Under the pieces are notes generated by a model. The model was given only the letters and a program-made list of their open reading frames with translations, did not search any database and had not been told where the DNA came from. DNA of 64,000 nt, taken from positions 2,252,001 through 2,316,000 of the forward strand of contig CP114561.1 in the NCBI GenBank assembly GCA_028865235.1, in the 5' to 3' direction. The stretch is from Candidatus Manganitrophus sp. (GTDB lineage: Bacteria > Nitrospirota > Nitrospiria > SBBL01 > Manganitrophaceae). The first letter of the stretch is position 1. Each line of letters starts with the position of its first letter. Both the position numbers and the translations under genes were made by a program. Of the stretch, positions 45,916-53,499 are shown in pieces.

Positions 45916-46224
45916 TCAGATCGGCGGATGAACCGATCGGGCCTCGGCCAGGGTGGAGACAAAGACCTTCCCGTCCCCCGGGTTGCCGGTGCGCGCGGAG
46001 ATTTTAATCGTATCGACGACCCGATCGACCTCCCCCTCTTCCACCACCAGCATGAGCCAGACCTTGGGAAGCTCCTCGTAGCGAACGGGACCGACCTGAA
46101 TCCCGCGCTGCCTTCCCCGGCCGAAAACCGCCTGCCGCGTCAGAGAGTAGAAGCCGGCCTTCTCCAGCCCGGCGATCACCTCCCCCTCTTTCTCCGGACG
46201 GATCATCGCTTGGACCATCTTCAT
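45916..46224 (-). CDS. P-II family nitrogen regulator (NifI1-like), downstream of NirBA
   Basis: A 102-residue P-II protein. The fold is visible in MVQAMIRPEKEGEVIAGLEKAGF and the nucleotide loop RTGNPGDGKVFVSTL. The T-loop is the short NifI type, GRGRQRGIQVG, and not the GHTELYRG uridylylation loop of GlnB/GlnK. P-II proteins sense ATP/ADP and 2-oxoglutarate and block or activate partners by contact. It is the last gene of the minus-strand nitrite operon, 19 bases after nirBA. Control of NirBA or the molybdoenzyme by contact is likely but unproven. Confidence 0.9.
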   Translation of the reverse strand: MKMVQAMIRPEKEGEVIAGLEKAGFYSLTRQAVFGRGRQRGIQVGPVRYEELPKVWLMLVVEEGEVDRVVDTIKISARTGNPGDGKVFVSTLAEARSVHPPI

Positions 46225-46243: not shown

Positions 46244-49200
46244 TCATCGTGCTTCGATTAAATCGGGAATCATCGTGATCGCATCCGACAATTCGGGCGC
46301 CAGGGGGCCGATCTCTTTTTCGAGAAGTGATGCGACCTGGTCGGCGCCGAGCCGCAGGACGGTCTCCTGAAAAGATTCGCCCGCAAGACGATCGGTCGCG
46401 ACGATTCCGAGCAGCGCGTCGACGGTCGGCACGACCATCTCTTCGGTAATCCCTTTTCGGACCATCGCCCCCAAGCGAATCCCCCCCTCGACCTGGCCGC
46501 CGAGGAAGAGTTGATAAGAAAACCGTCGCAGCTCGCCGACCGGCGTCATCGTTCCGGCGAGGCCGATGTCGGCGACCTGATGTTTGGCGCAGCTGTTGGG
46601 GCAGCCGGAGAGATGAATCGAGATCGACTGGAAAAGCGCCGCCTTCTCCGGCGCTTCCGGACGGAAGCGCAATAGATCGCGCGCCGCCCCCTGCGAATTG
46701 GTCACGGCGAGGGTGCAGAATTCGGTGCCGGGACAGGCGAGCAGCGCAGGGCCGCTCTCTTTTCCTTTGAGCGACAAGCCGGCCGCTTTCAAGGCCTGAA
46801 CGGCCCGGCCGATCTTCCGGATCGGAATCCAGTGGAGGGCGAGATTTTGGTCTTTCGTAAAGTGGACGATCCCGTTTCCATGCCGCCGCGCGACCCGGCT
46901 GACGGCCCGGAGCTGCTCCGCGCGCAGCTCGCCGAGCGGAACGGCCACGGTCAGCCGGACATACCCCGGCTGCCGCTGCGGAAGAATGCCGGGGGTGTTC
47001 GGGATCGAAACGGGATTGAGGCGGTTTCCGATTCGCTTCCAGAGAGGGGGCCGCCGCCCCGGGTCGGCCAAAGAAGGGAGGGGGACCTCCCGGTTCTCGG
47101 GGAGATTCTGTTTTTCCAGGAAGACCTTCTCGAACATCTCGATAAATTCCTCCCGGCCCCACTGCTCGATCAGATATTTCAGCCGCGACTTCGCCTTGTT
47201 CCGGTTGCCGAACTTGGTGTGAATGGCGAAGATCGCCTGACAGGCCGCCAGCGCATCGGGGGGGGAGAGAAACTCCTTCAGCTTGAATCCGAGCATCGGA
47301 TGGGCCCCCAAGCTTCCTCCGACCCAGAGCTCGAAACCGAGATGCCGTCGCCCGTCCTCTGTCTTGCGCTCGACGGCAACGAATCCGATGTCATTGATGA
47401 TGGCATCGGAGGCGCACGCCCGGCATCCGGCAAAATAGACATTCAGGCGGTTCGGCATCGTCGGGTTGATCAGGTCCGACCGCTTCACGAAATAATCGGT
47501 GATCCGCTGCGCCCAGGGCTGAACATCGAAGAGGCCGTCGGACGCCACCCCCCGTGCGGGCAGGCCATGACGTTCCGCAAGGTGTGACCGCAAGCCGACC
47601 GGGTCGAAAGACCGATCGTCTCCAGTTTCTCGAAAATCTCCAACGAATCTTCCACGCGGATCCAATGCAGCTCCATGCTCTGGCGGACGGTGAGGTGGCC
47701 CCATCCCCGGCCGTGGGTCTCTGCGAGGTCGGCCAGCCCCATCAGCTGCCTGTGGGTGACCGCCCCTCCCGGGATGCGAATCCGGAGCATGAAGTAGCCG
47801 GGATGTTTCTGGCTGCAAATGCCGTAGGTCTTCAGACGATAGTAGTCTTCAGGCGCCAGGGCCCGGGTCCCCTCCTCCCGCAGCCGGTCAAAATCGATCC
47901 CCAACCCTTCCTGTTTGACCTTCTCCAGGTCGAGCGTCTTGAGCGCCCCCGGTCCTGTTTTTGTGGGGGACTTCTCCGCAACGATCGCCGTTGCAGGCCC
48001 CTTGGCCGGCGTCTTTGTCGCCTCGCCGAGAAGATCTTCCACCAATTGACTGCAACTTCCGCAGCCGGTCGTCGCCTGTGTGCAGGCGGCCACCTCGTCG
48101 CGGCTCTTGAGTCCCTTCTCCCGGATCGCGGCGAGGATCATCCCTTTCGTGACGCTGTTGCAGTTGCAGACCAGGTCGGTTTCCCGCAGCGCGGCCACGC
48201 CGCTTGCGGCCCCCGCTCCCCCTTCGACCGAGACATTTCCGAGGAGCGACGATTTAATCTCGCCGATCTCCTCCCCCTTCTGGATCAGGTTAAAGAGCCG
48301 GGGACCGTCTTTGTTGTCGCCGAGGAGGATCATCCCCGCCAATCGGTTCTGGCGGATCACACATTTTTTGTAGATCGCCTTTTCGGTGTCGACGAAGATC
48401 AGCTCCTCCGCCCCCCGTCCTCCCAGAAAATCGCCGGCGGAGGTGAGATGAATCCCGGCGACCTTCAGTGTCGTCGCGCAGAGGGTTCCGGGGTAGCGAC
48501 GTTGATTCTTCCCGACCAGGACATCGGCCAACACCTCCGCTTGCTCCTTCAGCGGCGCGATCAGCCCATAGGTTTTCTCCCGATGCTCGATGACATCCCC
48601 GACGGCGTAGATCCCGGGGAGGCTCGTCGCCATTCGATCGTCGACGAGAATGCCCCGGTTCGTCCTCAATCCGATCTGTCGGGCGAGGGTCAGGTTCGGC
48701 CGGATGCCGGTGCAGATCAGCGCCATCCCGGCGGGAAGATCCTCTCCGGTGGTGAGGCGAACGCCGGCGACCTGCTCTTCTCCGAGGATCGCCTCCGCGG
48801 TGGTTTTGAGCAGGACCCGGATCCCCATCCGTTCGAGCTCCCGTTTCAAGAGAGAGGCCCCGGCCGGATCGAGCTGCTGCTCCATCAGCCGGTCGCCGAG
48901 ATGGGCGACGGTGACCGACACCCCGTAGTTGATCAGCCCTCGCGCCGCCTCCAAGCCGAGCAGCCCCCCGCCGATCACGACGGCGCGCCGGCTCGACCGG
49001 GCCGCGGCGACGATCCGCTCCGTCTCTTCCAACGTTCGAAAAAGAAAGACCCCCTTCTTCTCCCGGCCCGGAATCGGCGGGACGAAAGGGACCCCGCCGA
49101 CGGCGAGGACAAGGGCATCGTAAGGGGCGGCGCCGCCGTCGGCATTCGTCACATACTTGGAAACCGGATCGATCCCGGTGATCGCCAAACCGAGCTTTGC

Positions 49201-49431
49201 GTCGATCCCCCGCTCGGCATACCAGGTCCGCGGCCGGGTGAAGATCCGCTCGGCCTCGGTTTTTCCGGCGAGCAGATCGGAGAGGAGAATCCGATTGTAG
49301 TGGGTCTGCGGCTCATCGCCGAAGAGGGTGATCGAAAGGGGGGCGCCGGTTTTCAATAGGGCCTCCACCACGGCGATCCCCGCCATCCCGTTTCCGATCA
49401 CCACCACCCGCAGTTTAGATTGATTCGTCAT
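46244..49431 (-). CDS. NirB-type FAD/[2Fe-2S] domain fused to sirohaem nitrite reductase, one frame break
   Basis: About 1,062 residues, ATG 49431. N-terminal FAD/NAD(P)-binding domains open with VVVIGNGMAGIAVVEAL and contain VVIGGGLLGLEAARGL. A BFD-like [2Fe-2S] domain shows VCNCNSVTKG and TGCGSCSQLV near residues 430-470. A long linker with AEKSPTKT leads to the sirohaem reductase: HLTVRQSMELHW, then after a frame break in the CCCCCC run near 47547 the ligands ACPGTEFC and SGCPNSC (CX5C, CX3C). It should reduce nitrite to ammonium with six electrons from NAD(P)H. It is longer than NirB (about 840) because it holds both reductase halves. The operon has P-II genes on both sides. Confidence 0.88.
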
Positions 49432-49438
49432 CGATCCT

Positions 49439-49771
49439 TCACTCCGACACCGACTCCGTCTCTTTTGTCCCTGTCCGGATGGTGTAGCTCTCCGAGACCT
49501 CCTGGACGAAGATCTTCCCGTCGCCCGGGTGGCCCGTCTCGGCCCCCTGCTCGATGGCGGCGATCGCCCGGGGATACTCTTCCTCGCTGACGATGAGCAG
49601 GAGCATCGACTTGGAGAGGATGTCGTAATGAACCGGCCCCACCTGGATCCCGCGTTGCTTCCCGCGCCCGAGCACCGGCATCTTCGTGACGGCAAAAAGT
49701 CCGGCCGCTTCCAGACGGCCCAGGACCGCCTCTTCCCGCTCGGGGCGGATGATCGCGCGAATCAGCTTCAT
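49439..49771 (-). CDS. P-II family nitrogen regulator (NifI1-like), upstream of NirBA
   Basis: A 110-residue P-II protein, similar to the one at 45916. The core MKLIRAIIRPEREEAVLGRL, the short T-loop GRGKQRGIQVGPVHYD, and the nucleotide loop TGHPGDGKIFVQEVSE are present. The C-terminus is an acidic, Thr-rich tail. It lies six bases after the molybdoenzyme-P-II gene and seven bases before nirBA, so it is in the same operon. Confidence 0.9.
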   Translation of the reverse strand: MKLIRAIIRPEREEAVLGRLEAAGLFAVTKMPVLGRGKQRGIQVGPVHYDILSKSMLLLIVSEEEYPRAIAAIEQGAETGHPGDGKIFVQEVSESYTIRTGTKETESVSE

Positions 49772-49777
49772 TTTCTT

Positions 49778-50893
49778 TCACCCTCCATCAGATCGCCTCT
49801 CCCCCCGCTCGTCGGTGCTGATCCGGACGGCGTCGTCGATGTCAACGACGAAGATCTTGCCGTCGCCGTAGGCCCCCTTTCCGGTCCGGTTCGCTTTCAT
49901 TAAGGCGGCGATCACCGCCGGAACGCGGACGGCGTCGATCATGATCGAGAAATATTGTTTCGGCATAAACTTGATTGCGACCGGCTCCCCTTTTTCCGAC
50001 TGAAATCGAAGCCCCCGCTGGCGGCTCCGGCCGAGGACCGTCGTGGTCGTATACGAATAGATGCCGGCCGCTTCCAGCGCCTGGCGGGTCGCCAGCTGCT
50101 TGCCGGGGCGAACCAGGGTGATGACCTCTTTTAATGTCGCCTGCCGCGGCGGCTGTTTCTTTTTGGGGACCGAATCGACCTGGCCGTGCACCGGGGGTTC
50201 CGGAGTCGAGATCGCGGCCGGGGGGGGGGGTGGAGATTGGCGCGATCTCGCTCCGTACCGGAGGGGGATCTCCGGATTTTCCCGCCGGGGGGACAATCTG
50301 AAATTGTCCCCGCCATTTGTCGTTCAATTGGCCGGTCGGGCTCTGGGCAAGCAGCCGCTTGATTCCGACCGGATCGTGCCGGAAGGCATGGATCGTATGG
50401 ACCCATTTGACGCTTTTATACCCTTGAAGAAAGGGAACGACCAATCGAAGCGGGCCGCCGTGGACTTCGGGGAGGGGCGATCCGTTTAATCCATATGCCA
50501 GCAGAACGCGTGGATCGCGGGCCTCGTCGCGCGAGAGCCCTTCGAAGAAGACCCGATCGCGGGAGTAAAAAGCGAAGTAGCCGTCGGGGTGGGTGTCGAT
50601 CTTGAAGGAATCGAGCAGATCGACGAGGCGGATTCCCTCCCACTCGACCTCCTCGACCCAGTTGAAGATCTGGCAGATGAACGGCACCTTCAGCTTCACG
50701 CGGGGGAGCTCGTGCAGCATCGGCCAGGAAATCAAACGCGGATGTTGTTCCAGGCCGGCGAGGTCGAGCGTCACCTCCTCCAGCGCGAGGGAGGGGGGAT
50801 CGGATAGAGGGAGAGGATCGGAAGCGGCATTGCATCAAAATCGATCCGGAAAAACTTGTCGGCAAATTTCGGTGGAAGGATTCCTTCCCGCAT
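49778..50893 (-). CDS. Sulfite-oxidase-family molybdopterin domain fused to a P-II domain, frame breaks
   Basis: Read from ATG 50893 (AAAGGGG upstream) to 49778, about 370 residues. Residues 1-220 match the SuoxMopt oxidoreductase fold: LPRVKLKVPFICQIFNW carries the likely Mo-ligand Cys, and VEWEGIRLVDLLDSF, HGGPLRLVVPFLQGYKSVKW follow. A Pro-rich linker of about 45 residues leads to a P-II domain resembling NifI2: TLKEVITLVRPGK, TVLGRSRQRGL, NRTGKGAYGDGKIFVVDIDDA. Frame changes lie in a run of Gs at about 50795 and in eleven Gs at 50220-50230. A free P-II starting at an internal GTG would lack a ribosome binding site, so fusion is the better reading. The eleven-G tract could also allow slippage. 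Confidence 0.75.
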
Positions 50894-51629: not shown

Positions 51630-53499
51630 ATGGTTTTGGCCGGCTTTCTCCTCCCGCTTTTCGCCGGGGCGGTCGGGGCGGCGGAGGGGGGTGGTCGGTT
51701 CAGCAGGGGGAGGTGACGTCGAACGGGCTCTGGGCGGTCCATTTCGTCTCGGCGAGCGAGGGATGGGCCGGGGGGGGCGATGGAACGATCCTCCACACCG
51801 CCGACGGCGGCGCGAGCTGGCGGGCGCAATACAAAGAGAAAGGGGAGCGGTTCTTCTCGCTTCATTTTTCCGATCGGCTCCACGGCTGGGCGATCAGCTG
51901 GACCGGCAAGATCCTCCATACGATCGATGGCGGCGGAAGCTGGCAGGAGCAGCCGAATCCGGAGCGGGTCTGGCTCTGGGATGTTTACTTTACCGATCGA
52001 TTAAACGGCTGGATCGTCGGCGACAAAGGGGTGATTCTCCATACCGCGGACGGCGGCCGGCGTTGGGAGGTTCAAAAAAGCGGGCAGACCGATCCGATTC
52101 TGGAGGTCTTCTTCATCGATCCGCAACGGGGATGGGCCGCCGGGTGGAACGGGATGATCCTCCAGACGCAGGACGGGGGCGAAAAGTGGACGGCGCAGAA
52201 GAGCGGGACGACCGCCGCGCTGGAGGCGATCTTCTTCATCGATCCGCTCCGGGGCTGGGCGGTCGGCCGGCAGGGGACGATCCTCCGGACGACCGACGGC
52301 GGCAAACGGTGGCAGCCGCAGCAAAGCGGCACGGAACATCTTCTCATCGGCGTGCAATTCGCCTCTCCGCAAATCGGCTGGGCCGCCGGCGGATCGGGAA
52401 CGATGCTGAAAACGGAAAACGGCGGGGCGACCTGGGAGAAGGTCGACGCCGCGGTGAACAAAACGTTCGAAGGGCTCTCGTTCGGCGACGACCGCCACGG
52501 GTGGGCGGTCGGATGGGGGGGGTGATCGTCCACACGCGGGACGGCGGCAAACGCTGGGAGACGCAGAACAACGGCTTCACCGACCGTTTCTTTCGGGTCC
52601 ACTTCGTCGATGAGCGGCACGGTTGGATTACCGGGGAGACCGGCACCATCCTCCACAGCAACGACGGCGGACGGAGCTGGACGCCTCAAGAGAGCGGAAC
52701 GGAGGAGTGGGTTTTGTCGGTCCATTTTACCTCGCCGCAGGAGGGATGGGCGGTCGGCGGCAAGGGGCTGCTCCTCCACACGGTCGATGGGGGGAAGCGC
52801 TGGGAGCGCCGGCAGAAGTTGACCGAGGCAAGCCTGGAAGGGATTTTTTTTCTGACCCCCAAGATCGGATGGGTCGTCGGCGAGACGGGGTTGATCTTCC
52901 GGACGGATGACGGCGGAAAGCGGTGGGACTTTCAACTCAGCGATACTCCCGCCAGTCTCACTGATGTCGTTTTTACCAGCGAGCGGAAGGGATGGGTCGT
53001 CGGCAGCGGGGGGACCCTGCTTCAGACGGAAGACGGCGGCAAGACATGGATCCCCTTTCGGCTTCCGACGAAGGGAACGCTCACCCGAATCCTTTTTCGT
53101 CCGCCGAACCGAGGATGGGTGGTCGGGGAAGAGGGGACCCTCCTGATGACCGAAGACGCCGGAAAAAGCTGGACGCCGATCGACACCGGAACGAAGGTGC
53201 CGCTTTGGGATCTCTCGATGCAGGGGCAGGAGGGATGGATGGTCGGCGATCTCGGAACGATCCTCTATACGAAAGATGGCGGAAAGTCGTGGGCGGAGCG
53301 TGACAGCGGGGTGACGCAGCGGCTGAACAGCATCTACTTTACCTCTCCCGCCCGGGGGTGGGCCGTCGGCAAGGGGGGGCTGATTCTCCAATACGGCGGT
53401 CCGGCGACCCCGCCGATGCAACAGGCGCCGGCCCAAGCGCCCTCCCGGACGAGCGATCGAACTTCCGAACCGTCGATACCGAGTAAGCGACCCCACTAA
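51630..53499 (+). CDS. Exported Ycf48-like beta-propeller protein with 13 repeats, two frame breaks
   Basis: About 620 residues. The signal peptide MVLAGFLLPLFAGAVGAA begins at ATG 51630 (a TTG six bases earlier is possible). There follow 13 repeats of about 43-46 residues ending in ILHTxDGGxxW and containing GWAVG, the pattern of Ycf48/photosystem II assembly factor propellers. Frames break in runs of Gs near 51690 and 52518; both sides continue the repeat phase. Thirteen units exceed the seven of Ycf48, so two propellers are expected. The tail is Pro/Gln-rich. In non-phototrophs such proteins bind exported enzymes or cofactors; the partner is unknown. Confidence 0.88.

Follow-up and report, generated by a model that had tools for sequence, protein, structure and literature searches.

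A sulfite-oxidase-fold molybdenum domain fused to a NifI2-like P-II domain in a probable nitrate-assimilation operon of Candidatus Manganitrophus and relatives

Results

The window (the whole 64,000-nucleotide stretch analysed, from Candidatus Manganitrophus sp., assembly GCA_028865235.1, contig CP114561.1) carries on its minus strand the fusion gene moPII, a P-II gene (PIIB), the nitrite reductase fusion nirBA, and a further P-II gene (PIIC; Table 1). Both in the window and at L031:8728-11853, nirBA is a single chain (about 1040 to 1080 amino acids [aa]) in which a NirB-type FAD/[2Fe-2S] part is followed by a double sirohaem module of NirA type; in congener G001, Pfam found Pyr_redox_2, Rubredoxin_C, Fer2_BFD, two NIR_SIR_ferr, and two NIR_SIR domains. 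No NarK, NasA, or cofactor genes were found within the window; NarK lies within the operon of congeners G004 and G005, and moaA is present in congener G001. Divergent from and upstream of moPII is a BNR/YCF48-like protein (51691-53499) with many GWAVG..GTIL.T.DGG..W repeats, frame-split in the window and adjoining moPII in congeners too. Next to the operon of G006, on the opposite strand, lies another NirB-like protein (L083:795-3815), which is similar to NIR_SIR.

Table 1. Features of the moPII locus (positions in the window)
Feature	Position	Strand	Evidence or remark
moPII fusion gene	49788..50893	-	Split by three homopolymer differences here; ~367 aa in relatives
Mo domain (Oxidored_molyb, sulfite-oxidase fold)	50373..50771	-	PF00174, 91 bits (cutoff, 24), 8e-26
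Presumed Mo-ligand Cys codon (FICQIFNW)	50673..50675	-	Invariant in 29/29; aligned to 1ogp Cys
G6/C6 run, first frame break	50793..50798	G6 on plus strand	One base shorter than intact gene of G001/G002
G11/C11 run in Pro-rich linker, second frame break	50220..50230		G001 and G002 have C7
C6/G6 run, third difference, C-terminal residues altered	49801..49806	C6 on plus strand	One base shorter than in G001/G002
End of Mo module and Pro-rich, predicted disordered linker	50132..50372	-	pLDDT below 50, residues 206-249 of L134 model
P-II domain, NifI2-like	49808..50131	-	PF00543, 59 bits (cutoff, 25), 5e-16; best PDB match 9p1x_G (G001 chain)
P-II gene B (PIIB), NifI1-like	49439..49771	-	PF00543, 77.8 bits; best PDB match 9p1x_H, 2e-28
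nirBA, FAD/NAD(P)H - [2Fe-2S] BFD - sirohaem nitrite reductase fusion	46244..49431	-	Intact G001 copy (Pfam)
P-II gene C (PIIC), NifI1-like	45916..46224	-	PF00543, 69.7 bits; best PDB match 9p1x_H, 9e-26

As the original prediction had it, the Mo domain, Pro-rich linker, and P-II domain follow one another on the minus strand, and the frame is broken at two homopolymers, one of eleven Gs. Pfam found PF00174 and PF00543 in the two pieces. A third run (49801-49806) differs as well and shifts the last few residues; the ortholog stop lies at 49788-49790, not at 49778. The corresponding DNA of G001 and G002 is a single open reading frame (ORF) with run lengths off by one, four, and one bases from those of the window, and amino acid identity outside the homopolymer runs was 91 to 100%. 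Each of five same-genus relatives (G001 to G005, Ca. Manganitrophaceae) has a single open frame (367 to 399 aa by first start codon), and in intact relatives PF00174 and PF00543 lie on one chain (Pfam). A chance ORF or frame artifact was ruled out, the gene being uninterrupted in relatives.

The Mo/P-II fusion is real. Since moPII is uninterrupted in G001 to G005, the joining belongs to the lineage, and the breaks in the window are most likely assembly errors: nirBA of the same operon is likewise frameshifted (near 47.55-47.6 kb) and the assembly, in three contigs, has a completeness score of 86.7%, which together make indel error the likely cause. A moPII truly broken in this genome (a pseudogene or separate frames) and intact in relatives would fit the three homopolymer differences but is highly improbable, given the frameshifted nirBA, the identity outside the runs, and a completeness that is low for three contigs.

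Among 29 aligned members of the Mo family, 43 columns were invariant, including the Cys of CQ(I/L)FNW and the block PFLQGYKSVKW. The Cys of FICQIFNW, proposed beforehand as the likely ligand, was kept in 29/29 and in a profile alignment fell on residue 98 of plant sulfite oxidase 1ogp, the Cys of 'TLQC'. An AlphaFold model of the L134 homolog (mean pLDDT, 72.7; Mo part mostly 80 to 95; linker residues 206-249 below 50) matched sulfite oxidases, MsrP/YedY, a Pichia nitrate reductase fragment, and PruR and, separately, P-II proteins. The CAGNRR motif of sulfite oxidase and eukaryotic nitrate reductase holds the substrate-binding Arg; in the Mo family its place is taken by CQIFNW (29-sequence alignment), and the flank of the Cys is closer to that of MsrP (RCVEAWS). 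Pfam found only PF00174 and PF00543 in the chain, with no Mo-co dimerization, cytochrome b5, FAD/NADH, or DMSO-reductase Mo (PF00384) domain.

The claim that the domain shares its Mo family with eukaryotic assimilatory nitrate reductases held for the fold (Pichia angusta 2bii/2bih; profile, 2e-7), and a role in assimilatory nitrate reduction is presumed for moPII as well. It did not extend to the enzyme type: a eukaryotic-type nitrate reductase, with its Mo-co dimer, cytochrome b5 (haem), and FAD domains and CAGNRR, was ruled out because these are missing, and moPII has a P-II domain instead. The eukaryotic enzyme arose by fusion within eukaryotes (PMC6400420). Like MsrP/YedY and uncharacterised single-subunit cytoplasmic members of the sulfite-oxidase family, moPII has a short Mo domain without a dimer domain, and the aromatic-rich stretch after the Cys is common to MsrP/YedY and the moPII family. 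MsrP is periplasmic, with MsrQ as its partner, whereas the moPII family is associated with nitrate operons and carries a signature of its own, PFLQGYKSVKW. It may be among the uncharacterised cytoplasmic enzymes listed in a review of the family (PMC7759655).

The P-II part had been called NifI2-like, and its best PDB match in the G001 chain was 9p1x chain G (2e-18); for the neighbor PIIB, as for PIIC, chain H of the same entry was far ahead of all other PDB matches. From its chains, which are labelled 'P-II family nitrogen regulatory protein', we take 9p1x to be a NifI1/NifI2 structure. In 17 aligned fused P-II domains, Q39, GDG, and R101 were each kept in 17/17 and K58 and K90 each in 14/17; R103 was replaced by Ser or Asn, and Tyr51, the site of uridylylation, was lost (V, A, or P there). 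An ordinary GlnB or GlnK was ruled out by the missing Tyr51 and the better NifI match. At the sequence level, a NifI2-like identity of the fused domain, with a putative NifI1-like gene adjacent, is supported. The likeness to the NifI1/NifI2 pair of nitrogenase lies in the adjacency of the two genes and in their closest PDB chains (9p1x G and H); the differences are nitrate genes alongside, a third P-II gene, and a NifI2-like part covalently on the enzyme. Nitrogenase genes were not among the neighbors of moPII, whose locus has nirBA and NarK instead. NifI1,2 controls its enzyme directly, blocking the NifH site on NifDK, with release by 2-oxoglutarate and ATP (PMC9765008).

An order-level survey found the fusion in the window's own genome and in G001 to G006, G012, G014, and G017, the P-II part without a Mo domain in G013, G015, and G016, and no cluster in G007 to G011. 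The fusion gene of G014 (L136:7983-9134) has a single internal TGA in its P-II part. A phylum search gave further fusions in G036, G083, G099, G144, G173, and G293, plus an unfused Mo domain in six genomes. A named search yielded 38 loci, nearly all from metagenome-assembled genomes (MAGs) and with taxon labels as deposited, including Leptospirillum, Lindowbacteria, Acidobacteria, SAR202, Dehalococcoidia, Elusimicrobia, and a Thaumarchaeota bin. One chain with both domains, sought among relatives, was found in the five congeners and in other Troglogloeales, Leptospirillum-like genomes, other Nitrospiria, Lindowbacteria, and Acidobacteria; in Chloroflexota, Elusimicrobia, and other Nitrospirota, the Mo domain has a gene to itself, frequently with P-II genes next to it. 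Separate Mo and P-II genes in all relatives, the pattern named in advance, together with frames kept apart, as telling against a fusion, were ruled out: the fused chain is intact in relatives and separate genes occur only in some lineages.

The spread and ARRANGEMENTS of the Mo domain revealed three gene arrangements: (i) fused Mo-PII followed by PIIB, a transporter, nirBA or NIR, and PIIC; (ii) Mo alone followed by nirBA, PIIA, PIIB, and NarK; and (iii) PIIA and Mo as separate neighbors followed by NarK, NIR, and PIIB. In a Mo-domain tree, a single branch (94/88) set all fused rows apart from the rest. The stand-alone P-II-A genes of G013, G015, and G016 nest within the fused P-II clade, which suggests that the Mo domain was probably lost there; these three genomes have NasA.

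NasA, NarB, and NasC belong to the DMSO-reductase family, are 700+ aa long, and contain bis-MGD and an iron-sulfur cluster. In the operon they act after the nitrate transporter and before the nitrite reductase, a role that moPII would share, and within the order the two tend to substitute for each other. NasA (75 to 100% identity; called from full-length matches to NasC/NasA/Fdh models, all below cutoff, with periplasmic nitrate reductase as best PDB match) was present in G006 to G011, G013, and G015 to G017 and absent from G000 to G005, G012, and G014, of which G005 and G014 are incomplete genomes (72% and 82% complete). All 8 genomes of the order without the Mo domain had NasA, and 8 of the 10 with it did not (one-sided Fisher P = 0.001 by genome); collapsed by genus, P rose to 0.12, so we read the pattern as suggestive and not as an independent proof. 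Genus g4 is split, with the fusion and no NasA in G012 and NasA and no Mo domain in G013. Both proteins occur in G006 and G017 within the order, plus G379. The four PF00384 proteins of G001 were formate-dehydrogenase-, NuoG-, and QrcB-like. A Nas/Nap-like protein of about 950 aa with a C-terminal extension (L036:1228-4095), 32 to 37% identical to NasA, was also seen in the Mo carriers G144, G293, G408, G409, G419, and G422.

A sirohaem reductase was found at 30/37 named loci, P-II at 28/37, and a NarK-type transporter at 26/37, counts in which several contigs are short and neighbors may fall off the ends. The MFS proteins of the loci matched the NarK nitrate/nitrite family TIGR00886 slightly below cutoff. 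L154, which has no NarK, has a nitrate ABC transporter ATPase directly upstream (TIGR01184, 308 bits; cutoff, 291.8), preceded by an NMT1-type binding protein, and L151 combines a transporter of this kind with NIR. Many loci carry only a ferredoxin-type NIR and no nirBA, so nirBA cannot be the general electron donor; the moPII chain has no dedicated electron carrier fused to it. In a Polyangium bin (L168:3-1118), a Rieske [2Fe-2S] domain precedes a related Mo domain within one polypeptide, which suggests a possible electron input for such Mo domains. Enrichments of Ca. Manganitrophus, which are not axenic, grow with 1 mM nitrate as the nitrogen source (PMC9040806).

NuoG-type proteins aside, the Mo protein was the only molybdoenzyme detected in two Elusimicrobia and in a Leptospirillum-like genome of one contig. 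G036, G083, G414, and G417 (the last two MAGs of unstated completeness) each had one PF00174 match, the Mo protein, and no xanthine-oxidase-family domain (PF02738); PF00384 matched a NuoG-type protein in G036 and one similar protein in G083 and was absent from G414 and G417. All four, as well as G406 and G416, carry moaA on the contig of the Mo gene, at a distance of 4 to 7 kb. A NarG-like protein of the DMSO-reductase family, about 1150 aa long and far below the narG cutoff, is encoded both in G406, a bin labelled Thaumarchaeota (L172:133-3621), and in G416, an Elusimicrobia genome (L173:715-4146); for that reason these two fall outside the sole-molybdoenzyme set. The cluster of G036 reads moPII, PIIB, NarK, nirBA, PIIC, moaA, moaD, moaE, moeA, moaC, mogA, and that of L157 reads PIIA, Mo, NarK, NIR, PIIB, moaA, moaE, moaC/B, moeA. 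Sulfite-oxidase-family enzymes do not need MobA. The linked moa/moe/mog genes support the prediction that the Mo domain binds MPT-Moco.

Discussion

The locus is probably a nitrate-assimilation operon, in which a nitrate reductase of sulfite-oxidase fold is fused to a NifI2-like P-II domain and accompanied by a NifI1-like partner. From genome context, nitrate is likely the substrate of the Mo domain; the neighboring operon genes, the complementarity with NasA, and the linkage to cofactor genes give this reading strong indirect support. Evidence on the other side is the replacement of the Arg of CAGNRR (CQIFNW), the co-occurrence of NasA in G006, G017, and G379, the NarG-like proteins of G406 and G416, the missing fused electron carrier, the lack of NarK, NasA, and cofactor genes in the window, and the non-axenic state of the cultures grown on nitrate. 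Control of the Mo enzyme by P-II is plausible by analogy with nitrogenase and slightly favored on balance; the loss of R103 from the fused domains speaks against such switching.

Starting from the observed single chain, its domains and Cys, the genes sharing the operon, the complementarity with NasA, and the linked cofactor genes of relatives, a mechanism can be proposed whose substrate, electron donor, ring assembly, and direction of control are inferred. MoPII would be the first enzyme of the operon, a cytoplasmic Mo domain with its MPT cofactor on the invariant Cys reducing nitrate to nitrite, which the nirBA sirohaem enzyme would then reduce to ammonium. On its flexible linker, the fused P-II domain would form a P-II ring with the product of the NifI1-like neighbor. 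With nitrogen plentiful (low 2-oxoglutarate), the ring would keep electrons from reaching the Mo site or nirBA; ATP and 2-oxoglutarate would release the block, as modelled on NifI1,2 and nitrogenase.

The P-II domain might instead be a tether, docking the Mo nitrate reductase to the transporter or nitrite reductase with no allostery on the Mo site, such that nitrite is channelled or the complex forms only when nitrogen is scarce. P-II proteins do bind transporters, e.g., AmtB, the linker of the L134 model is long and disordered, and the existence of stand-alone Mo proteins means that catalysis can do without the P-II part. Many lineages with the unfused arrangement still keep NifI-like genes beside Mo, however, which fits regulation and docking alike, and we regard docking without allostery as unlikely.

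Doubtful to a greater degree is a Mo domain that performs some other nitrate-linked step (e.g., removing NO, chlorate, or methionine sulfoxide), with nitrate reduced elsewhere or nitrite alone assimilated. The MsrP-like surroundings of the Cys and the NasA of G006, G017, and G379 would agree with this, but in most genomes of the order the Mo domain stands in the place of NasA, and it is the lone molybdoenzyme candidate next to nitrate transporters in G036, G414, and G417. A noncatalytic, PruR-like pterin or nitrate sensor with P-II relaying its signal, suggested by the pterin-binding PruR structures among the fold matches, is very improbable beside a Cys invariant in 29/29, linked Moco synthesis genes, and carriers in which the protein is the sole molybdoenzyme.

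A nitrate reductase remains our preferred reading of the Mo domain. No bacterial sulfite-oxidase-family nitrate reductase and no P-II domain fused to a molybdoenzyme were found in the literature searched (mostly without subscription papers), in agreement with the original statement that no described enzyme of this form was known to its author. It is reasonably likely that these proteins are prokaryotic assimilatory nitrate reductases of a class of their own, with a sulfite-oxidase fold and the MPT cofactor, missed by annotation across Nitrospirota, Chloroflexota, Elusimicrobia, Acidobacteria, and others, and that one clade has been made self-sensing by fusion to a NifI2-type P-II domain.

To our knowledge, prokaryotic assimilatory nitrate reductases have all been taken to be DMSO-reductase-family enzymes, and genomes without NasA or NarB are usually read as those of non-users of nitrate. 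If our reading is true, nitrate assimilation would depend on a different enzyme in manganese-oxidising Nitrospirota, Leptospirillum-like iron oxidisers, SAR202, and groundwater Elusimicrobia, and surveys based on marker genes would count too few nitrate users. An enzyme and a carbon/nitrogen sensor would stand on a single chain, and NifI-type control would extend beyond nitrogenase.
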